Source: Ruminococcus sp. (GTDB taxonomy: Bacteria > Bacillota > Clostridia > Oscillospirales > Ruminococcaceae). From it: a DNA stretch of 32,231 nucleotides. Both the position numbers and the translations under genes were made by a program. The notes beneath the pieces were generated by a model. That model saw only the letters and a list, made by a program, of their open reading frames with translations. It was not told the DNA's origin and made no database searches. Position 1 is the stretch's first letter; every line of letters begins with the position of its first letter. The stretch spans positions 1 to 32,231 of the forward strand of contig JAKSQT010000022.1 of assembly GCA_024403995.1 (NCBI GenBank), in the 5' to 3' direction. This document shows positions 5,913 through 32,220 of the stretch, in pieces.

Positions 5913-6011
5913 TCAGGATAACGGGATCTCAGGCAGTGTTACCGAAGTAGTGATAACATCTTCGCTGTCAAATCTGATAACTTCAATTTCAGGTGAAGTA
6001 TATTTGGTCAT
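5913..6011 (-). CDS. 32-residue peptide of the PEIEVIRFDSEDVITTS type, unknown function
   Basis: A short reading frame with an ATG at 6009-6011 and an AAGGAG ribosome site 9 bases upstream. It ends just before a strong terminator. The product runs from MTKYTSPEIEVIRF through DSEDVITTS and ends in LPEIPLS. It is acidic and has no signal peptide, membrane segment or cysteine. From memory, many Ruminococcus-group genomes carry similar tiny proteins with a PE(I/M)E(V/I)..F...DVITTS core. I could not search for this, and no function is known to me. It lies 72 bases behind the stop of the giant LRR gene, with a hairpin between, so it may be co-transcribed with it. It is too short for ordinary gene callers. 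Confidence 0.6.
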   Translation of the reverse strand: MTKYTSPEIEVIRFDSEDVITTSVTLPEIPLS

Positions 6012-6036
6012 TTTGTTTTCTCCTTATATTTTTTTC

Positions 6037-6081
6037 AGCACCGTACAAATCCGTTAAACGTGATTTGTACGGTGTTGTTTT
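6037..6081. repeat. Intercistronic hairpin; copy B of the dispersed palindrome
   Basis: The arms 6037-6051 and 6062-6076 pair over 15 bases with one mismatch around a 10-base loop. A T run follows only on the + strand. In the direction of the LRR and peptide genes (-) no T tract follows, so here it is more likely an mRNA-stabilising or processing hairpin than a terminator. Confidence 0.7.
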
Positions 6082-6082
6082 T

Positions 6083-9000
6083 TTATTTTGCCATATTTTC
6101 AAATGCTCTGTTGTAGAAATAAAGTGTGCTGATCGCATTTTTTACAGAGTCATCGAAATTGCTGTTAAGAACTGACTTGAAGTAAGTGAAGCAGCCGTAT
6201 TCAAGCGATGCATATTCTTCTGCATTTGTCTTTGAAACAGCCTTTATGCTGAACATTTCGTCATAGCGTGCAGGAGCAATATTCATAATGCTTACGACAT
6301 ATACACCGTCTGAAAGTACAGGCTTTACTTCTTTTCCATCAACAGTGAAAATATAGTCACTTACAGATACATCGTCTGCAAGGGTAAATTTTACATAGAG
6401 GTTTACAGCATCATCAACAGAGAGATATGCGCTTTTCAGAGTAATTTTGCTGCTGTTTACGTTTACTGATGCATTGTACTGACTGCCGATACTGATCTCT
6501 TTGTCTTTTATCTTTTCAACAGGCTTGTTTTCACTGTAGTTCTTCATTGCAATGCCAAGGTCACGGAGAGCTTCAATGCATTCAACTGTTGCACTGTCGT
6601 ATTTTTCGGCATTTCCAAGAACAGCATCGATATACTTTTCAACGCTGTATTCAAGGTATGAGCCGGAAATTTTGCTGTTGTAGAAAATCTGAGCCTTAAC
6701 TGTCTCGGATATCTTTGATGCCGGAACAGGGCAGGTGAAAACATATTCTCCGTTTTTATTCTTTTCAGCATCGGTGAGCTTCTGTGTATAGTAAGCGCCG
6801 TTTTCAAAAGTGAACTTGATGTATGCATTCTTATATACAAGAGCGATGTCATTTACGGACATGATGAATTTTAGTGAAATGCTGTTGTCAAGAGTTACAT
6901 ATGCTTTGAGGAATGAGTCGAGATTATTCTTTGCCTGACCGCATTCCGTGCATATTCCGTCATCATTGAAGCTGTGGCGGGCGCTGTTGTAGAATTCAGG
7001 ATTGTTTGCAGCTTCAGCAGCCATGAACGGAGTGAAGCCGTTTTTGCATTCTGCATCAGTGAACCAGCCGCAGAAACCGCATTTTTCTCTGAGAACAGGA
7101 AGTGCTGTTACTATTGAGCCGTATTCGGCAGGGAAAATTTCTGTACAGCCGTCCCAGTAGTGGAGTGTAACTCCTGCATAGCACTTGAAATCAGGATTTG
7201 CGCTTCTGTCAAGCTTGCCAAGAACTATAAGCTTGCCTGTTGATGTTGGTTCGATAAATGCTTCTGAGTGGATTGTAACATTTACATTTGCAGGGATAAC
7301 AACATTCTTTGTGAGGAGAAGTCTGCCGAATATTGTAACGTTCATTTCGTCATTGGCAGTCTTGTCATTCTTTTCTCTCAGTTCATTGAAGTAGTATTCA
7401 ATATCGTCAACATTCTCGAAAATATCGCCGTTTGAGCTCATGGCATTGCTGTTTGCAGGAATTACCAGAGAGCTTACAAGTTCGCCGCAGTATGAGCAGT
7501 TTCTTGTTGCAGTACCTTCTGTTTTGTCGGTCGGAGGTGTGAGGAGGATATAGTCCTTTGCTCCGCATTCCTTGCAGTCGTGCTCATCAACGCCGACTAC
7601 AGGATATTTAACCTGATATCCGTCGCTGAAATCAACATGGATCAACATTGGCTTGTCAGCGATATGCGGAATGAATTCAAGAGCAGCAAAATCTGAAAGT
7701 GCAAGAACATTGTCCTTTGATGTGTATCTGCCGCCGCTTACGCTGAGTGAAACAGCGTTGTCCTTCCCGTCAAGAGCGATTTTTTTGCCGTCAGCATCAG
7801 TTATATAAACGTTAGCTGTAACGCCTTCAGGAGCTTCAAATGTGAAGTATCTTGAAGTATTAACGGTTACTGCATCGGTAATGCCGAAGTTTGCGCCGAG
7901 AATGAACAGGTCATCGATATCAATATGGTGTTCAGGCTGGTTGGCTCTGATATATTCTTTTACCTCGTGAGCGTTTATCTGATACTTTTCAAATAATTCA
8001 TCAGGAGTCATTTTTCCTGCGCCGACTTTGATGAAGTCCTGAGCGTAGTTTTCACCGTCAGGAGTGATGTATGTTATTATGTGGTCGAAATTTGAAGAAA
8101 TATCGTGAGTTGAAGTAAAGATGTGATATGGTCTGTTGTTGTTGTCAGTGATGATGAATTCATACGGAATTTCAACATCTGAGCCTGTGAGTGTAGTAAC
8201 AAAGTAGTTTTTGAGGATATGCGGAACGATAACGTCATTGTTTCTTGCAAGATATCTTGCATATGCTTCAAGCATTGCAGAATTGCCTTCAAGTGCATAG
8301 AACAGGCGCTTGTCGTAAGAGGCATTTATCTTTCTTTCGTCATCTGAATACCAGAGGTCTTCGATAGTGATCTCAACATCGATCGACTCGCCCGGTTTCA
8401 GTTCATCAGTAGAAACTGTCTTATTCAGGCCGTCAGAGAGAATGACCTTTGTTCCTTCATCGATAAGCTTGTCGTTTTCGTCATATTTTCTGTCGATGTA
8501 ATAGCCGTGTTCAACGTTCTTTATTCTGTTTGAGATATGGTAAACAGGCTTGTCGGAAACGTTCTTTATTCTGATGGAGAATGTGTACGGCTGGAGATAG
8601 AATGAATATTTGTTTGCCTCGATAGTCATTTTCAGGGCATTTTCGGCATAAACATGGAGGTCTTCCTCTGTTTCAAAGGTATATTCCATTTCCTTGCCTT
8701 CGCATTCGCCTTTGAATGTGGCGCTAAGCGGATAATCTCCGGCTTTATCGCCGCAGAGATACCACTGTACATCAAGAGAGCTGTTTGGCTTGAGGTCAGG
8801 AACATTCTGGAGCTTTTCGCTTTCTCTGAGGGATAAGCCGTTCTCGTCGAAATTAAGCTCGGCAGAGCAGTTTTCGAGAGTTTTGTCATCAAAGTTGAAA
8901 ACGAGGAGCTGAACTCTGTAAAATTCCTTGAGCCATTTGCTTTCGCCGTAAACGATGATGAACATTTCCTCGTTGTTGACCTTTTCATACTTTACGGAAG

Positions 9001-12000
9001 CATTCATCTGCGGAACATAGGTATAGCTTCCTGATGACAGGGAAACTCCGCCGCCCTCGCCCGGAATTTCGCCGCCCGGCATAGGATAGCTGAAAGCGGT
9101 GAAGTCCATTTTGACAGAGCCGCCGTCCTTTACGATTTTAACAGGCTCTGAGTCGAAATCCATTTCAATAGTGTAGTTGAAGTGGTGATAGTTTGCTTCG
9201 TCGTTGAGGTCAATGCCTGCCTCAACTATTTCATCAAGAGTCATAGGAGTTGCGGTAAGCTCACCCTTGACTTTGAGCTTCGGGAGGTCTTCAGGATTTA
9301 CAGGCTGAGTAGTTGTAACAGCAGTTGTTGTGGAAGAAACTGCTGTTGTAGTGTTGGTTTTTCTGGTTGTCGTTGTTGTGAGCTTAGTTGTAGTGGTCGC
9401 AGCATAGTTATCGACCATTTCAACTGCATCCATACCGTAGACTCCGCCGTCTTTTACAGTGAAGGTGATGTCTGCGGCTTTTTCATATCCTTCAGGAGAA
9501 GCAATTTCATGGAGTGTATATGTACCTTCTCCGAGGATAAATGTTGTTTTTTCACTGCCTGTGGCCCATACAAGTACATCATTTGCGGCACTGATGGTCT
9601 TACCGCCCTTGCCGACTTTTATCTGGTCTGAAGTGAAGATTATCTTTGAGCCGTCAGCATTTTTGCCTGACAAGGAGAGGTATGCATCTGCAACCTGAAC
9701 GCCATTGACATCTACCTTGTTTATCTCAACAGTTGCCATTGTGGTCGTGGTAGTTGTTGTGACAGCAGTGGTAGTTGCAGAAGTTGATGTAGGCTTTGCG
9801 GTGGTCGTGGTTGAAGTTGATGTAAGCTTTACAGTTGTTGTGGTTGAAGTTGTGGTTGGCTTAGCTGTTGTCGTTGTGGAAGTAGTAGTCGGTTTTGCAG
9901 TAGTGGTTGTTGTTTTGATAGTAGTTGTGCTTGGCTTTGCAGTTGTAGTAGATGTTGGCTTAACAGTTGAAGTAGTTGAAGTTGTGGAAGATGTAGGCTT
10001 TGCAGTGGTAGTTGTGGTAGTGGTCGTTGTGGTTGTAGTAGTGGTTCTTCTGACAGCAGTAGTCACAGGTCTCGGATCATTGCCGTAGTGGATAGTGGCA
10101 TTTTTAATTACAGAGCCATCCTCAACGCCGACCTTTTTCCATTCGCTTTCAGAGCCTGTGTAGTATACATCTGTAAGGGCTGAACAGCCTGAGAATGAAT
10201 CAGCATAGATAAGATCAATGCCCTTTGAAATGCCGACTGATGTGAGACCTGAAAGTTTGAGGAATGCCTGATTCGGGATAATGTTTCCGCCTGTTATATT
10301 GATGGCTTTTAATGAATTCGGGAAACACACACAGTCTCTCCACCAAGTCAATTCTGTACGTGTTCCACCATCAAATGCGGTATCGTTAAATAAAAGATGC
10401 GGAATGATAGAGGTTGAGCCGTCTTCTATTGTTTCGATTGAATTGCCTGCAAACGGCAGAGTGATGCTTTCAAGTGACGGACAGCTATAGAAAAGTTCAT
10501 TCCCAAGTGAAACAACACCGTCGCAGATAACAGCCTTTTCAAGTGATGCGCAGTTGCCGAATGCGCCGTTGCCTACAGAGTAAACATTGCCCGGAACAGT
10601 TATTTCTGTAAGTGATGAACAGTCAGCGAAAGCATATTCACCGATAGTTTCAGCATACTTTGAGATGTTGAAGCTTTTAAGTGATGAACATCCTCTGAAA
10701 GCTGAGTTATCTATAAGAGTGATCTTGTCACCATAGGTGAACTGAGAAAGTGAAGAACAGCCTTTAAAAGCACTGTCTTTGAACTCAGTAATTGAATCGC
10801 CAAGGGTAACAGTGGTGACAGAGAACATCTTCAGAAAAGCGTTTGTCGGAATAATTGAACCGCCTGTTATATTGATGGCTTTTAATGAATTCGGGAAACA
10901 CACACAGTCCCTCCACCAAGTCAATTCTGTACGTGTTCCACCATCAAATGCGGTATCGTTAAATAAAAGATGCGGAAGAATTGTAGTATCGTTTGCATTT
11001 ACGCTTTCAAGAGTGTTACCTGCAAATGGCAGTGTAATTTCTTCAAGTGAAGCGCAGCTGCCGAAAATTTCATTGCCAATGTTCTTTACTGAATTTGTAA
11101 GAACAGCTTTTTTAATGCCTGTGCAGTTGGCAAATGCGGAATTTCCGACGTCGCCCTGAATAGTAATATCAGTAAGGGATGTACAGCCGTTGTAGGCATT
11201 TTCTCCGTTGACCTTGGCATATGAAATTACATCAGGGAGACAAGCACAGTTTAAGAAAGCAGAATTTCCTACGAGATCCATCTTGTCGCCGCAGGTGAAC
11301 TGAGAAAGTGAAGAACATCCGCTGAATGCGCTGTCTCTTATTTCTGTTATTGAGGCGGCAAGATTTACGGTCGTAATTCCGTTCATGTTGATGAAAGCGT
11401 TTGTCGGAACAGCCGGACCGCCTGTTATATTGATGGTCGTTAATGAATTCGGGAGAAATACACGGTCTCTCCACCAAGTCAATTCTGTACGTGTTCCGTT
11501 TTCAAATTCGATATCTGCAAATAAAAGATGCGGAATGATAGAGGTTGTACCGTTTTCTATTGTTTCGATTGAATTGCCTGCAAATGGGAGAGTGATGCTT
11601 TCGATTGCGGGACAGCTATAGAAAAGTGCATCTCCGAGCGTTTCAACACCGTCAGAAATAACAGCCTTTTTAAGATTGGGGCAATTGCCGAATGCACCGT
11701 AGCCAATGGATTTTACAGTGCCAGGGACAGTGATCTCGGTAAGTGATGTACAGCCTGCGAAAGCGTAGTCACCTATAGTTTCAGTATCCTTTGAGAAAGT
11801 GAAATTGCCGAGGGAACAGCAGCCTTCATAAGCCGAATTTCCGATGTTTGCAACATTCGGGGTAATATTTTTGAGTGATGAGCAGTTCAGGAAAGCGTTG
11901 TTTCCGAATGCCCTGATATCTTTATTGCAGTTGAGCTGTGAAAGTGAAGTACAGTTGCTGAATGCACTGTCTTTTATTTCAGTGATAGAATCATCAAGAG

Positions 12001-13363
12001 AAACTGTGGTGACAGAGAACATCTTCAGAAAAGCGTTTGTCGGAATAATTGAACCGCCTGTGATATTGATGGTTTTTAATGAATTCGGGAAATACACACA
12101 GTCTCTCCACCAAGTCAATTCTGTACGTGTTCCTCCGTCAAATTCATTATCTGCAAACAAAAGGTGCGGAAGAATTGCGGTTTCGTTTGCATTTACGTCT
12201 TCAAGGTTATTTCCTGCAAACGGCAGTGTAATATCTTCGATAGATGAGCATCCGGCAAAAATTGCATTGCCGATGCTTGTTACAGATTTTGTAAGAACAG
12301 CTTTTTTAAGGCTTGTGCAGTTTGCAAATGCAGAATTTCCGACGTCGCCCTGAACTGTGATATCAGTAAGTGATGTACAGCCGTTATATGCGTTGTCTCC
12401 GTTGATCTTGGCATATGAAATTACATCAGGGAGACAAGCACAGTTTAAGAAAGCAGAATTTCCTACGAGATCCATCTTGTCGCCGCAGGTAAACTGTGAA
12501 AGTGAAGAACATCCGCTGAATGCGCTGTCTCTGATCTCTTTTATCGAGTCAGCAAGATTTACATTCTTTAATCCAGACATATTAATGAGAGCACATTTCG
12601 TAAGAACTGAACCGCCTGTTATATTAACAGTTCTTAGCGAATCTGCTAAATACACACAGTCCCTCCACAAAGTCAATTCTGTACGTGTTCCGTTTTCAAA
12701 TTCACGGTCTGCAAATAAAATGTGCGGAATGATATAGGTTGAGCCGTCTTCTATTTTTTCGATTGAATTACCTGCAAACGGCAGTGTAACGTTTGTAAGT
12801 GAAGAACAGGAGGCGAAAAGTTCGTTTCCGAGCGACTCAACGCCGTCAGCGATAACTGCGTCAGTGAGGGCTGTACATCCGGAAAATGCGCCGCTGCCGA
12901 TAGTTTTCACCGTACCGGGGACATAGAGCTGTTTGAGTGCGGTACAGTTTTGGAAAGCATCGCCTGCGATAGAAGTGACTTCCTCGCTGAAAACAATAGC
13001 AGAGATAAGGAATCGGTTCTCAATATTCGGTGCGGAAACATACATATCGCCCGACCCCGTAACGCTGAGAACGCCGTTTTCATAGAGTTTATAGAAAACA
13101 TCAACGCCAATCTGACCTTCTTCAAGAATTTTTGCATCAACAGGTATTTCGGGAATCTTTACCATGTTGATATACTTCTGTATTTCGTCAGTGTTACTGA
13201 GTTTGGCGCTTGATGCTGAGAGCAGATCAGCGTCTGAAGTGTCTCCGTCAGTCGTTGTGATGATTGGGTTAGTTTCCGCTGCAAATGTGGTCATTAGGGA
13301 AGGTGTGACCGCAGAGGAACTGACCAGCAGACTAAGAATGCCTGCCACAAGTTTTTTGACCAT
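6083..13363 (-). CDS. Giant secreted BspA-type leucine-rich-repeat protein with Cna-B-like domain
   Basis: A 2426-residue exported protein, probably an adhesin or carbohydrate- or host-interaction protein. Residues 1-29 are a signal peptide (MVKKLVAG...TTFAAE). Residues 75-1085 contain BspA/LRR_5 repeats (A-F-x-x-C-x-x-L type) in five long modules, each marked by INITGG and a W-RD-C/R motif. Residues about 1096-1210 form a Thr-rich linker (TTTT...AKPTTTST). Residues 1213-1322 look like a Cna-B/SpaA domain with isopeptide candidates Lys1216, Glu1286 and Asn1319. A second Thr linker follows, then about 570 unassigned residues. CxxC pairs lie near 1926 and 2139, an InlB-repeat-like GFCGWFTDAEC near 2104, and an all-beta/helical C-terminus. 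No LPxTG, S-layer or dockerin anchor is visible. The start is supported by AAGGAG and a strong promoter. Confidence 0.9.
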   Translation of the reverse strand: MVKKLVAGILSLLVSSSAVTPSLMTTFAAETNPIITTTDGDTSDADLLSASSAKLSNTDEIQKYINMVKIPEIPVDAKILEEGQIGVDVFYKLYENGVLSVTGSGDMYVSAPNIENRFLISAIVFSEEVTSIAGDAFQNCTALKQLYVPGTVKTIGSGAFSGCTALTDAVIADGVESLGNELFASCSSLTNVTLPFAGNSIEKIEDGSTYIIPHILFADREFENGTRTELTLWRDCVYLADSLRTVNITGGSVLTKCALINMSGLKNVNLADSIKEIRDSAFSGCSSLSQFTCGDKMDLVGNSAFLNCACLPDVISYAKINGDNAYNGCTSLTDITVQGDVGNSAFANCTSLKKAVLTKSVTSIGNAIFAGCSSIEDITLPFAGNNLEDVNANETAILPHLLFADNEFDGGTRTELTWWRDCVYFPNSLKTINITGGSIIPTNAFLKMFSVTTVSLDDSITEIKDSAFSNCTSLSQLNCNKDIRAFGNNAFLNCSSLKNITPNVANIGNSAYEGCCSLGNFTFSKDTETIGDYAFAGCTSLTEITVPGTVKSIGYGAFGNCPNLKKAVISDGVETLGDALFYSCPAIESITLPFAGNSIETIENGTTSIIPHLLFADIEFENGTRTELTWWRDRVFLPNSLTTINITGGPAVPTNAFINMNGITTVNLAASITEIRDSAFSGCSSLSQFTCGDKMDLVGNSAFLNCACLPDVISYAKVNGENAYNGCTSLTDITIQGDVGNSAFANCTGIKKAVLTNSVKNIGNEIFGSCASLEEITLPFAGNTLESVNANDTTILPHLLFNDTAFDGGTRTELTWWRDCVCFPNSLKAINITGGSIIPTNAFLKMFSVTTVTLGDSITEFKDSAFKGCSSLSQFTYGDKITLIDNSAFRGCSSLKSFNISKYAETIGEYAFADCSSLTEITVPGNVYSVGNGAFGNCASLEKAVICDGVVSLGNELFYSCPSLESITLPFAGNSIETIEDGSTSIIPHLLFNDTAFDGGTRTELTWWRDCVCFPNSLKAINITGGNIIPNQAFLKLSGLTSVGISKGIDLIYADSFSGCSALTDVYYTGSESEWKKVGVEDGSVIKNATIHYGNDPRPVTTAVRRTTTTTTTTTTTTTTAKPTSSTTSTTSTVKPTSTTTAKPSTTTIKTTTTTAKPTTTSTTTTAKPTTTSTTTTVKLTSTSTTTTAKPTSTSATTTAVTTTTTTTMATVEINKVDVNGVQVADAYLSLSGKNADGSKIIFTSDQIKVGKGGKTISAANDVLVWATGSEKTTFILGEGTYTLHEIASPEGYEKAADITFTVKDGGVYGMDAVEMVDNYAATTTTKLTTTTTRKTNTTTAVSSTTTAVTTTQPVNPEDLPKLKVKGELTATPMTLDEIVEAGIDLNDEANYHHFNYTIEMDFDSEPVKIVKDGGSVKMDFTAFSYPMPGGEIPGEGGGVSLSSGSYTYVPQMNASVKYEKVNNEEMFIIVYGESKWLKEFYRVQLLVFNFDDKTLENCSAELNFDENGLSLRESEKLQNVPDLKPNSSLDVQWYLCGDKAGDYPLSATFKGECEGKEMEYTFETEEDLHVYAENALKMTIEANKYSFYLQPYTFSIRIKNVSDKPVYHISNRIKNVEHGYYIDRKYDENDKLIDEGTKVILSDGLNKTVSTDELKPGESIDVEITIEDLWYSDDERKINASYDKRLFYALEGNSAMLEAYARYLARNNDVIVPHILKNYFVTTLTGSDVEIPYEFIITDNNNRPYHIFTSTHDISSNFDHIITYITPDGENYAQDFIKVGAGKMTPDELFEKYQINAHEVKEYIRANQPEHHIDIDDLFILGANFGITDAVTVNTSRYFTFEAPEGVTANVYITDADGKKIALDGKDNAVSLSVSGGRYTSKDNVLALSDFAALEFIPHIADKPMLIHVDFSDGYQVKYPVVGVDEHDCKECGAKDYILLTPPTDKTEGTATRNCSYCGELVSSLVIPANSNAMSSNGDIFENVDDIEYYFNELREKNDKTANDEMNVTIFGRLLLTKNVVIPANVNVTIHSEAFIEPTSTGKLIVLGKLDRSANPDFKCYAGVTLHYWDGCTEIFPAEYGSIVTALPVLREKCGFCGWFTDAECKNGFTPFMAAEAANNPEFYNSARHSFNDDGICTECGQAKNNLDSFLKAYVTLDNSISLKFIMSVNDIALVYKNAYIKFTFENGAYYTQKLTDAEKNKNGEYVFTCPVPASKISETVKAQIFYNSKISGSYLEYSVEKYIDAVLGNAEKYDSATVECIEALRDLGIAMKNYSENKPVEKIKDKEISIGSQYNASVNVNSSKITLKSAYLSVDDAVNLYVKFTLADDVSVSDYIFTVDGKEVKPVLSDGVYVVSIMNIAPARYDEMFSIKAVSKTNAEEYASLEYGCFTYFKSVLNSNFDDSVKNAISTLYFYNRAFENMAK
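9733..10075 (-). repeat. Threonine-codon repeat tract (linker) inside the LRR gene
   Basis: A low-complexity run of ACN codons broken by AKPT units, about 114 residues. Such linkers separate domains in secreted proteins of rumen and gut Firmicutes and are often O-glycosylated. It is prone to slippage and length change. The reverse strand reads as a spurious Val-rich frame. Confidence 0.9.
10287..12640 (-). repeat. Five long tandem modules within the LRR gene, partly near-identical in DNA
   Basis: The INITGG segment recurs near 12626, 12070, 11430, 10870 and 10295, giving a period of about 555-645 bases. Two stretches are almost identical as DNA. About 105 bases at 10287-10391 match 10862-10966, and about 117 bases at 11222-11338 match 12415-12531. 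Synonymous sites are conserved too, which points to recent duplication or gene conversion. Confidence 0.85.
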
Positions 13364-13404: not shown

Positions 13405-13458
13405 TTAAGGCAGCACCGCACAAAGCACGTCTAACGACTTTGTGCGGTGTTGCCTTAA
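13405..13458. repeat. Copy C of the dispersed palindrome, in the LRR gene leader
   Basis: A perfect or nearly perfect 21-base stem (13405-13425 with 13438-13458) with a 12-base loop. It shares about 40 bases with the copy at 32181, loop included. It lies just downstream of the LRR promoter, so it forms the 5' end of that mRNA. No T tract follows in that direction. Confidence 0.8.
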
Positions 13459-13574: not shown

Positions 13575-13613
13575 GCAAAAAAATAACTCATTTACTTGTT
13601 AAAGTAAATGAGT
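13575..13613 (-). terminator. Terminator of the M48/peptide cluster
   Basis: A perfect 12-base stem (13586-13597 with 13602-13613) and a 4-base loop are followed on the - strand by TATTTTTTT. It is about 100 bases after the metalloprotease stop. The stretch 13614-13710 shows no convincing gene, and 13501-13574 is AT-rich and featureless. Confidence 0.85.
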
Positions 13614-13710: not shown

Positions 13711-14394
13711 TTATTTGATATTCTCTATTCGTTTATCAACAGAAGGGTGAAGACTTAAACCCTTGGAATTTTCGTTTTTTAGTTTATTTTCAAGGAATGA
13801 AGTGAGAGTAGCCGACTCTTTCATTTCCTTGACTGAGTATGCATCCGCATCAAATTCGTTTTTTCTGAAAAACAGAACAAAACAGAAGATGTAAGCCGCA
13901 AGAAGGACAAGACCTATGCATATCACAGGCGTATTTTCCTTAATGGCGAAAAATCTGATGCATACAAACAGGGCTATCATACCTGCATAAAGGAGAAATC
14001 TTTTGAGCTGATGGTGCTCTTTGACATGATACTGCTCATGATAGATCAGAGCTGATTTTTCAGCATCCGAAAGCGTTTCAAACTTATCCTTGTCAAAAAT
14101 TATGACAGGATCGATAATACCTACTGTGCGTGAATAGAAGCTGCCGACGCTGGTTTGTGCATTGCCATCTGAGGCAGCGAGATTGTTTTGCTTTATGAGG
14201 TAAATTTCCTGAGAAGCGAAAGTGACTTTTTCCGCATTTTTTTTGTCAACGAACAATTCTGACATCAGGAGAGAGGCAATAATGATAACAATGCCTGATA
14301 TTGAAATGATAACGATATTGTTGTTTGAAATGAAAAGGAAAATTGATGCTGCAAGAGCTATGAAAATAACGAGCTTTAAAACTGTGTTCATCAT
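13711..14394 (-). CDS. Membrane-bound M48-type zinc metalloprotease
   Basis: A 227-residue integral membrane protease related to M48 (HtpX/Ste24-like) or M56 peptidases. Two N-terminal membrane segments (about 5-45) precede the zinc site YHEQYHVKEH (HExxH, about residue 118). Two more membrane helices (about 133-175) follow, then the third-ligand motif EFDADAY (about 179-185). The C-terminal HPSVDKRIENI matches the M48 ending that positions substrate. It lies downstream of a double-glycine peptide gene on the same strand, 124 bases away, which suggests a role in processing, export or immunity for that peptide. ATG at 14391 is an alternative start with better spacing to GAGGT. Confidence 0.85.
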   Translation of the reverse strand: MMNTVLKLVIFIALAASIFLFISNNNIVIISISGIVIIIASLLMSELFVDKKNAEKVTFASQEIYLIKQNNLAASDGNAQTSVGSFYSRTVGIIDPVIIFDKDKFETLSDAEKSALIYHEQYHVKEHHQLKRFLLYAGMIALFVCIRFFAIKENTPVICIGLVLLAAYIFCFVLFFRKNEFDADAYSVKEMKESATLTSFLENKLKNENSKGLSLHPSVDKRIENIK

Positions 14395-14449
14395 TCTACC
14401 TCACATGGAAAGCCGATTTTCGGCATAGGGCGTATGTGCGTAAAGTGAA

Positions 14450-14487
14450 TTAAGCTGCACAACTATTGGAATAATTGTGCAGCTTAA
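14450..14487 (-). terminator. Hairpin between the bacteriocin-like gene and the M48 gene
   Basis: A perfect 13-base stem (14450-14462 with 14475-14487) and a 12-base loop. Only a weak T-rich tail follows on the - strand. This would suit a leaky terminator or RNA-processing site that gives more peptide mRNA than protease mRNA. Confidence 0.6.
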
Positions 14488-14518
14488 ACATTGATCATTC
14501 AGTTATTCGCCGCTTCGA

Positions 14519-14791
14519 TTATGATTTCCAAGCGTCAACTGTAGCAAAACCTGTTGCTGCTGCGCCGATAGCACCAACGCCGAGACAAGCCCAGCCTACA
14601 GGGCCTACTGCTGCTAAGAAGCCAACACCAAGAGTGCCAACACCAGCGCCGCCGATAAGTGTGCAAGCACCGAGAGTAGATGCTACGCCACCCATAGCTG
14701 TGAGAACACCGTTGTACCACTTACCACCGTCGATTTCGTTGATTTCGATCTCGCTAAGCTCTGTGAAGCCGTTTGTCATAAAATTGTCCAT
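14519..14791 (-). CDS. Double-glycine-leader bacteriocin-like peptide precursor
   Basis: A 90-residue precursor. The leader, residues 1-23, ends in ELSEIEINEIDGG and fits the LSxxExxxIxGG consensus cut by C39 peptidase-containing ABC exporters. The predicted mature part (24-90) starts KWYNG and is very Gly/Ala-rich with GxxxG patterns. Cys43 and Cys69 could form a disulfide. It ends VDAWKS. This is the profile of an unmodified class II bacteriocin or similar pore-forming peptide. A strong GGAGG site lies 7 bases before ATG. No C39 exporter, second peptide or classical immunity gene is adjacent. Only the M48-like protease downstream and a GyrI-like gene upstream are close. Activity is inferred, not shown. 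Confidence 0.8.
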   Translation of the reverse strand: MDNFMTNGFTELSEIEINEIDGGKWYNGVLTAMGGVASTLGACTLIGGAGVGTLGVGFLAAVGPVGWACLGVGAIGAAATGFATVDAWKS

Positions 14792-14895: not shown

Positions 14896-15372
14896 TTAAA
14901 GAATGTTGTCGCTTATGCCGATGTATATATCTGCGATAAGACTGTCAACATCATAGGGACCCGAAGGCTCCTGAACGGTTACATTGTAACCGGCTGTTAT
15001 AGGCGTGAGTTTTTTGAATTTGATATACTGCATCAGCTCGTTTGCAGTTTCCTGCATAGTAGCCGGATTACCCATATGCCTTATCTTTACTGCGTTTCTC
15101 AGACGGAAAACAGGTTTGATGGTGTATGGGGCAGGTACATAGATATCTCTGTCAAGCGGATACATTATTTCGATATCCAGTTCAGGTTCACTGCCGGAGG
15201 TATCGACTGCAAAAGTAGCCGAAACGCCTGACATAGTTTTCTGAGCGCCGTTTATTTTGATGATATCTGCCATTTCTTTTGCAATATCACCCATGCGCTG
15301 CTGTGTGACCTTGCCTCTGAAAGAGAGAACGTTGGTCATTTCAAGAGATGCGTTTTCTGTAATTTCGTGCAT
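14896..15372 (-). CDS. GyrI-like / AraC-effector-binding-type small protein
   Basis: A 158-residue soluble protein starting MHEITENASLEM. I placed the start at 15372 because GAGGTGA lies upstream, while an upstream ATG at 15474 would fall inside the promoter. The pattern VLSFRGKVTQQRMGDI, DIEIMYPLD and IRHMGNPATMQETANELM resembles the duplicated beta-alpha-beta-beta fold of GyrI-like ligand-binding domains. There is no DNA-binding domain. Such stand-alone domains bind hydrophobic or drug-like small molecules. It has its own promoter, so its link to the bacteriocin-like gene downstream is only proximity. The family call is moderate. Confidence 0.6.
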   Translation of the reverse strand: MHEITENASLEMTNVLSFRGKVTQQRMGDIAKEMADIIKINGAQKTMSGVSATFAVDTSGSEPELDIEIMYPLDRDIYVPAPYTIKPVFRLRNAVKIRHMGNPATMQETANELMQYIKFKKLTPITAGYNVTVQEPSGPYDVDSLIADIYIGISDNIL

Positions 15373-15445: not shown

Positions 15446-15474
15446 ATAATACCATAATTTGGTTGACTTGTCAA
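15446..15474 (-). promoter_or_regulatory. Promoter with palindromic -35 for the GyrI-like gene
   Basis: On the - strand, exact TTGACA (15469-15474), a 17-base spacer and TATTAT (15446-15451). The -35 lies in an inverted repeat TTGAC-TT-GTCAA (15463-15474) that could be an operator. Confidence 0.75.
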
Positions 15475-15933: not shown

Positions 15934-16009
15934 CTGGGTGTGGCGCAGTTGGTAGCGCGCTACCTTGGGGTGGTAGAGGCCGTGGGTTCAAGTCCCGTCA
16001 CTCAGACCA
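15934..16009 (+). tRNA. tRNA-Pro, anticodon GGG
   Basis: A 76-base cloverleaf. The acceptor CTGGGTG pairs with CACTCAG. The D arm is GCGC...GCGC and the anticodon stem CTACC/GGTAG surrounds loop TTGGGGT, giving anticodon GGG. The T arm holds TTCAAGT. Discriminator A and CCA are encoded. The GG before the anticodon stem and the overall pattern match Clostridia tRNA-Pro. It reads CCC/CCU proline codons. Confidence 0.95.
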
Positions 16010-16088: not shown

Positions 16089-16691
16089 TCAGTTTGCCTC
16101 CTGAACGGCAAACATACGCTTTGTCTGCGGCACACGGAAAAGAACAACTGCACCAAGAGTCGTCAGCAGAATTTCAGGAAGCATATACGCACCATTATAT
16201 ACAAGGCTGTAGATGTATTTGTTTTCAGCAACAAAATCAAGGCTGTCCCATATCTTTACGGTAGCCGCAAATATAACAATACCGCTAATAACATGGCTTG
16301 CAAACCTCATCACCATCACCATGACCGAGCCTGATATCCAGCCTTTCATGCCGTATTTGCGAAAAATGCCTGCAAATCCGATGACTGTGAAGGGGATGAT
16401 GTAATCAAACATCACACAGCCGACAAGCATTGAGGCGGACAATCCCCAGCCGAATACTCCGTCTCTGACAGCGCCCTGAAATAGCTGGAATGCCGCAAAA
16501 AGAAATGATACGCTCAGTCCCTTGGCGATTCCGTTTCTGATGCTGAAAACGCATATTGGCAGCATTGACATGAGAGTTATCGAGCCGCCGAACGGAAGAA
16601 GTCTCTGAAATGGCGTGATAAAGCTGAGTGCAATGGCAAGCGACAGCATGACAGCGCCTTCGACAAGTGTTCTGGTTTTTGAGTTTTTCAT
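16089..16691 (-). CDS. thiT: ECF transporter S component for thiamine
   Basis: A 200-residue, six-helix membrane protein that binds thiamine and joins the shared ECF module (EcfT/EcfA) to import it. The N-terminal half carries the ThiT/YuaJ pattern LVEGAVMLSLAIALSF ... LPFGGSITLMSMLPI, and the C-terminal half has LVYNGAYMLPEILLT. The length is typical. The assignment is confirmed by a TPP riboswitch in its leader. The energising ECF genes are not in this window, as expected for group II ECF systems. The AGGAAG ribosome site lies 7 bases upstream of the ATG. Confidence 0.92.
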   Translation of the reverse strand: MKNSKTRTLVEGAVMLSLAIALSFITPFQRLLPFGGSITLMSMLPICVFSIRNGIAKGLSVSFLFAAFQLFQGAVRDGVFGWGLSASMLVGCVMFDYIIPFTVIGFAGIFRKYGMKGWISGSVMVMVMRFASHVISGIVIFAATVKIWDSLDFVAENKYIYSLVYNGAYMLPEILLTTLGAVVLFRVPQTKRMFAVQEAN

Positions 16692-16785: not shown

Positions 16786-16800
16786 AAGTAAGCTGATAAA

Positions 16801-16878
16801 CTTGCTTCCTACGACGGTACTAACCGACAGGTTCAAAGGGTCAGATATAATCTTCTCAGCCGCAAAGCAGCTCCCCTG
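16801..16878 (-). promoter_or_regulatory. TPP riboswitch (THI element) controlling thiT
   Basis: On the - strand the conserved aptamer blocks are in order: GGGGAGC near 16873, CTGAGA near 16855, ACCCTTTGAACCTG near 16830-16843, GGTTAGTACC, and GTAGGAAGC at the 3' end. Binding of thiamine pyrophosphate should favour the terminator at 16754-16785 and switch thiT off. The 3' strand CGTAGGAAG (16805-16813) is also complementary to 16725-16733 beyond the terminator. Confidence 0.95.
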
Positions 16879-16904
16879 CAAATCTTTATTCAATTGCATG
16901 AATT

Positions 16905-32180: not shown

Positions 32181-32220
32181 AAGGCAACACCGCACAAAGC
32201 ACGTCTGACGACTTTGTACG
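32181..32220. repeat. Copy D of the dispersed palindrome (right arm degenerate)
   Basis: It matches copy C (13408-13447) over about 40 bases, including the loop CACGTCTGACGA. The right arm then diverges (TACGTCATAAACTT) before the window edge. Confidence 0.7.

Follow-up and report, generated by a model that had tools for sequence, protein, structure and literature searches.

CPBP proteases have been reported to confer bacteriocin immunity, according to the introduction of PMC9298176, and are recognised there by the motifs EExxxR and FxxxH. The abstract of that paper describes SilX, a CPBP protease encoded in a bacteriocin region that was not needed for immunity, and this case warns against deciding function from gene position alone. 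Where PMC8659200 discusses leader cleavage and cyclisation, it notes an M48 peptidase gene in two circular-bacteriocin clusters, three genes behind the precursor. A partner gene of the SpoIIM/DUF95 type is given as a mark of head-to-tail cyclised bacteriocins in PMC13289728. Our literature search, which mostly covered papers available without subscription, did not find a GG-leader bacteriocin precursor with an M48 gene next to it.

The DNA analysed here, called the window below, is a contig of 32,231 nucleotides from Ruminococcus sp. The original prediction for it was a 90-residue GG precursor followed on the same strand by a membrane protease of the M48 type, and this arrangement was borne out by the open reading frames, Pfam, the catalytic motifs and the leader matches. 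On the minus strand the peptide gene comes first, then a gap of 124 nt and then the M48 gene. The features of the cassette, in the direction of reading, are:

15446..15474, minus strand: site resembling a promoter, TTGACA-17-TATTAT, in which a TG precedes the -10; P158 follows (consensus scan, 11 of 12 matches)
14896..15372, minus strand: P158, 158 aa, ATG at 15372, weakly GyrI-like/DUF5085-like
14519..14791, minus strand: GG bacteriocin-like precursor, 90 aa, assigned by comparison of leader and core, with AGGAGG before the start codon
14450..14487, minus strand: hairpin between peptide and M48, with a stem of 17 bp and a loop of 4 nt (fold z -4.1; none of 200 shuffles reached this stability)
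13711..14394, minus strand: M48 zinc protease, 227 aa, four TM, assigned by Pfam M48 and the motifs HEQYH and EFDAD
13586..13613, minus strand: terminator-like hairpin and T run after M48 (consensus match)

By anatomy, the peptide and its exporter are of a known kind; what is new is the M48 partner. Like the class II bacteriocins that are exported by C39 transporters, this system has a GG leader, a small hydrophobic core rich in Gly and Ala and several peptides per genome, along with a C39 exporter and HlyD located in the cluster itself or elsewhere in its genome. It differs from them in that the window peptide has no Pfam match, the exporter is encoded in trans and the partner is an M48 protease. 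CPBP/Abi proteins (type II CAAX, PF02517) are likewise membrane proteases encoded after GG peptides in the same genus, although they are marked by EExxxR and FxxxH, whereas the window protease is a zincin of another family with HExxH and ExxxD. Membrane proteases of family M48 include the HtpX and Ste24 types. The cassette M48s resemble these in having four TM peaks, HExxH and ExxxD, but they are short (220-227 aa), were seldom found in the relatives searched and are encoded in a bacteriocin cassette, not as housekeeping genes. The circular-bacteriocin clusters of PMC8659200 also have an M48 peptidase gene in the bacteriocin locus, but at the distance given above, whereas in the window it stands directly behind a GG precursor.

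The window precursor consists of a 23-residue leader, MDNFMTNGFTELSEIEINEIDGG, and a core of 67 residues. Aligned with four other GG peptides, the leader is of the C39 double-glycine type, and it is no chance motif, as 14, 16 and 17 of its 23 residues recur in three GG peptides of the same genome. The core is rich in Gly and Ala and has two Cys, as had been predicted; the Cys pair, however, is not conserved in the two homologous peptides described below. No Pfam family matched the peptide at E<=1, and NCBIfam returned just two weak matches, far under the cut-off, with the BlpC match falling in the leader region. Neither database gave a match to a circular-bacteriocin family, and a tblastn search of plasmids gave no match to the peptide. 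Since no curated bacteriocin family matches it, the term bacteriocin-like rests on anatomy, and we regard the peptide as a putative class II-like bacteriocin that may be antibacterial.

The protease was matched by Pfam M48 (PF01435) with E=5e-10 and 39.9 bits (cut-off 20.3), and has HEQYH at residue 119 and EFDAD at residue 180; with HExxH, the downstream Glu ligand and the family profile all present, it belongs to Peptidase M48. Two of its four TM peaks lie before HExxH and two after, and we take this layout and the motifs to be HtpX-like. PF02517 was absent among its Pfam matches (E<=1); it is an M48 and not a CPBP/Abi protein. In the window genome (assembly 86% complete, 179 contigs) it is the sole PF01435 match found. 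Structure models were poor for the M48 (mean pLDDT 56.6, pTM 0.37) and of low confidence for P158 (mean pLDDT 53.8, pTM 0.39) and were given no weight, and a PDB sequence search gave nothing useful for either protein. The order of strands and helices in the P158 model would presumably suit a GyrI-like fold, which, at such low confidence, proves nothing.

P158, whose family has no curated name, turns up repeatedly alongside GG-peptide clusters in the genus. It gave 28 matches in 23 of the 125 genus genomes, and against Pfam its relatives gave GyrI-like and DUF5085, weakly and below the cut-off. Among the six best matches, one is the window protein and five are in loci with a C39 exporter and HlyD (L009 and L064-L067); four of these five, besides that of L009, stand in loci where C39 exporter, HlyD and GG peptides are combined. 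Around 15 of the 22 remaining matches, the exporter query found ABC proteins only at about 29-32% identity. In one of the loci (L066 of genome G031), the P158 gene and the C39 exporter are separated by nine short GG peptides in a row, all different (8063-10141, minus strand).

Judged from order and spacing, P158, the peptide, the hairpin and M48 would likely form one operon, probably starting with the P158 gene. The consensus scan found 13 promoter-like sites in the region (shuffle mean 8.1), so that the site upstream of P158 is no proof of a promoter, and the terminator scan found three sites of its kind (shuffle mean 2.0). A hairpin between the two genes was part of the original prediction; it is real, and 17-bp stems stand behind both homologous peptides as well, with the arms CTGCACAA/TTGTGCAG common to the window and L008 and different arms in G1254. 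It may act as an attenuator or leaky terminator, or as a stabilising hairpin, and the proposed setting of peptide above protease keeps its conditional form: attenuation would probably lower protease output relative to that of the peptide.

Some neighbouring features of the window were noted on the way. The repeat CACCGCACAAAGCACGTCT[AG]ACGAC occurs on the plus strand at 13414-13438, just past the cassette, and at 32188-32212 (0 of 100 shuffles), and appears by eye to be palindromic with its surroundings. A tRNA-Pro (ggg) lies at 15934-16009 on the plus strand, 460 bp from the promoter-like site of the cassette. An ordinary TPP riboswitch (16789-16887, minus strand) precedes the gene of a ThiT/YuaJ-type thiamine transporter (16089-16691, minus strand). 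On the other side, 6083-13363 on the minus strand encodes a protein of 2426 aa that, by eye, combines repeats of leucine-rich-like units with Thr-rich linkers and is probably a large surface protein.

No C39 exporter was found on the 32-kb contig, so the prediction that none is nearby holds for this contig. It does not hold for the relatives, as the exporter lies about 2 kb off in L008 and overlaps the M48 gene in G1254. The search for an orphan exporter elsewhere in the genome, which had been proposed as a check, gave one C39 match, on contig C143 (locus L009). This contig has a 755-aa C39 ABC exporter, HlyD and two GG peptides, behind each of which a small membrane protein is encoded (of 72 and 133 aa). 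Adjoining the exporter, at L009 4577-5044, is a 155-aa paralogue 63% identical to P158. Two more GG peptides are on contig C165. The extent to which leaders are shared within the genome makes processing of the window peptide in trans plausible, and the C143 exporter probably exports the precursor and cuts it after GG.

Another proposed check, whether an M48 gene recurs beside homologues of the precursor, led to two other genera. A peptide scan of genome contigs gave 299 pattern matches with one confirmed relative, L008, from a Lachnospiraceae MAG. Its core is identical to that of the window at 38 of 67 residues, and directly downstream lies an M48 gene whose product is about 36% identical to the window M48; a C39 exporter about 2 kb away, HlyD and five other GG peptides complete the cluster. 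The L008 peptide frame (6001-6273) has an in-frame TGA at codon 15 and is therefore broken or misassembled; the M48 frame downstream is open and intact, and the later comparisons with this peptide used the piece after the stop. Further down the same cluster, two fragments (L008 7208-7609 and 9418-9546) are 75-78% identical to parts of HlyD, which suggests duplications. The L008 genome also has a separate M48 match in a 421-aa frame, stronger than that of the cassette.

Searches for the M48 matched 1 of 125 genomes of the genus (E<=1e-5), 2 of 391 of the class, 2 of 397 of L008's family, 1 of 4 of L008's genus and 2 of 365 of the order, in samples that share members and contain the genome of the window or of L008 itself. 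In all, matches came from five genomes: those of the window and L008, from which the profile was built, and three new ones, G242, G548 and G1254. The last, from another genus of the window's family, was found among the 365 order genomes by the M48 profile alone (E 2e-8) and is therefore an independent test of the link. Its M48 is a full-length match of 220 aa, 23% identical to the window M48 over 136 aa; directly upstream is a 96-aa GG peptide, 44% identical to the window peptide, and a C39 exporter gene shares 4 nt with the M48 gene, with HlyD further on. The matches in G242 (397 aa, E 3e-7) and G548 (328 aa, E 1e-7) were partial, had no GG peptide in their 1.5-kb flanks and were set aside. 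The G548 protein adjoins an ORF that looks BlaI-like, an arrangement reminiscent of BlaR1/BlaI. As the E-values of the three are close, what sets G1254 apart is the full-length match, the equal size and the adjacent peptide.

All three members of the core family that were found (window, L008, G1254) thus have an M48 gene directly downstream, and HExxH, ExxxD and the four TM peaks are intact in each of these proteases. The pair is known from three instances in fragmented genomes, two of which built the M48 profile. In a separate comparison, the G1254 core weakly resembled an unannotated part of a plasmid of Staphylococcus caprae (L090 5001-5207; E 5e-3, 36%), next to genes for a type VII effector and a DUF443 protein, a similarity that may reflect Gly/Ala-rich composition only.

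Outside these genomes, tblastn of plasmids gave three M48 matches, on Geobacillus plasmids, at 31-33% identity over 58-67% of the window protein, closer to it than the G1254 M48 is. A GG scan around two of the three found no leader-like peptide, and we conclude that the distinctive feature is the pair of peptide and M48, not the M48 sequence alone. No match was found in phages searched for M48 or in plasmids searched with the G1254 M48, and four scans of viral contigs, for the peptide, for P158 and with two alignments for M48, gave no relative.

The association is specific to one core. We assembled by hand a table of 37 GG peptides from the fetched loci, a selection and no census, leaving out a contig-edge fragment of G031 (L005/L012). 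An M48 gene stands beside exactly 3 of the 37, which are the three that share the core. These cores match each other (E 3e-22, 1e-13 and 2e-7) and match none of the other 34 tabulated cores below E 0.39. A peptide search of 60 relatives matched the window and G031, the latter with a different core; a profile of five peptides matched 5 of the 125 genus genomes, and a search of 394 genomes of L008's family matched L008's own. Across these peptide searches no clear member of the core family was seen without M48, and the GG is conserved; as the genome also has a C39 exporter, the outcomes named beforehand as refuting the original prediction did not occur. The G031 contig-edge peptide (L012 45-170, minus strand) is similar to the window peptide in its leader and in the first residues of the core (49% over 39 aa). 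The assembly lacks the rest of it and its neighbours, and the piece is too short to be assigned to the family; G031 itself is without a PF01435 match. With recurrence and specificity for one core family in hand, the functional link between peptide and protease, an inference in the original prediction, is supported.

Counts of PF01435 matches bear on what the protease could do. The window genome has one and that of L008 two, and the congeners G031, G073, G096 and G078 (the last 79% complete) have none, although all four carry C39 exporters and GG peptides, and two G031 peptides have leaders identical to that of the window at 11 and 12 of 23 residues. As none of the four congeners with clusters, C39 exporters and similar leaders has a PF01435 match, the M48 is unlikely to be a general leader protease; such leaders can probably be removed without it, and its role ought to lie with this core. 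Of the roles first suggested for it, processing, immunity or quality control, processing in the sense of general leader removal is thereby unlikely; the evidence accords with both core-directed roles, immunity and maturation of the core.

Position offers a further clue. With G-U pairs allowed, a stem of at least 12 bp within 110 nt behind the peptide was found for all three M48-linked peptides (17 bp each) and for 6 of the 34 others. In the latter, the stem is followed by a CPBP protease (PF02517) in L065 and L067, by a small protein with three TM peaks in L064 and L089 (where the stem runs into the 5' end listed for this reading frame) and by the exporter in L066; in L010 no CPBP, small TM or exporter partner was identified behind it. 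CPBP proteases are encoded after GG peptides in three same-genus clusters (L011, L065 and L067). As the slot of peptide, hairpin and next gene holds CPBP or small TM proteins elsewhere, the M48 stands where putative immunity proteins stand.

Several other accounts of the M48 have to be weighed against self-protection. That peptide and protease are neighbours by chance, without any functional link, we can scarcely credit: there are three cases only, and the M48s of G242, G548 and two Geobacillus plasmids have no GG peptide beside them, but in both the window and L008 genomes, with so few PF01435 matches, one is directly behind the peptide, and the third case, found via the protease alone and with the homologous peptide directly upstream, already disfavours chance. 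It is quite unlikely that the M48 is a general quality-control protease of the membrane that travels with the cassette by happenstance. The HtpX-like layout and motifs, and the finding of no further PF01435 match in the window genome, would fit such a role; 124 of the 125 genus genomes, however, lack a match at E<=1e-5, the L008 genome has its separate, stronger M48 besides that of the cassette, and the linkage recurs with one core family only. We also think it unlikely that the peptide is a signal with no antibacterial function, which the membrane protease processes or clears. The abstract and introduction of PMC9298176 link the CPBP proteases SilX and MroQ to the processing of signal peptides. 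Genes resembling sensor kinases or response regulators were seen by eye near the G1254 and L008 clusters, but none beside the window cassette, and the best hint of a pheromone is the BlpC match in the leader, far below its cut-off. The Gly/Ala-rich cores of 67-73 aa are also long for known GG pheromones.

The main alternative, possible but doubtful, is that the M48 matures the core, by a second, core-specific cut (trimming) or by head-to-tail closure after C39 has removed the leader. The pairing is specific to the core, in G1254 the genes of M48 and exporter overlap, and the cores of the window family have, we assume, the size of circular bacteriocins. The M48 genes in the two circular-bacteriocin clusters noted in PMC8659200 point the same way. 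Against this, the precursors have ordinary GG leaders, and similar leaders occur in G031, a genome without a PF01435 match; no second cleavage motif was identified, and the slot is filled elsewhere by CPBP or small TM proteins.

On balance we lean, by a small degree, towards the M48 being an undescribed dedicated bacteriocin partner, a core-specific immunity (or core-processing) protease that is inherited with one GG family in three genera and occupies the slot of CPBP and small membrane proteins. For the fuller proposal of a satellite bacteriocin cassette, made up of P158, a GG class II-like precursor and a dedicated M48 membrane protease whose most likely role is immunity, we see the case as evenly balanced. 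In its favour are the recurrence, the core specificity, the want of a PF01435 match in all four congeners, the logic of the slot, the motifs intact in three of three proteases, the gene overlap in G1254 and the immunity reported for CPBP proteases. Gene content, gene order, motifs, recurrence and core specificity are observed, whereas the operon, bacteriocin activity, export in trans, immunity and attenuation are inferred. In such a cassette, the C39 exporter would export the precursor and cut it after GG, the mature peptide would act on the membranes of competitors, and the M48 in the membrane of the producer would clip or bind mature or mis-inserted peptide that is harmful to the producer. 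The assignment to immunity is an argument from gene position, and the dispensability of SilX speaks against leaning on it too heavily. Against the proposal also stand the small number of instances, the M48s of G242, G548 and Geobacillus that lack a GG peptide, the stop in L008, the G031 fragment, the poor structure model of the M48, and the overlap of M48 and exporter genes in G1254, which also fits maturation.

In class II bacteriocin loci, few parts are as hard to predict as the proteins for immunity and maturation. An association of a membrane zincin with one core family would extend the known partners by a protease class and provide a marker for more loci. As the zinc site can be inactivated cleanly, the cassette would also allow a test of whether proteolysis is how membrane proteases work in such loci.
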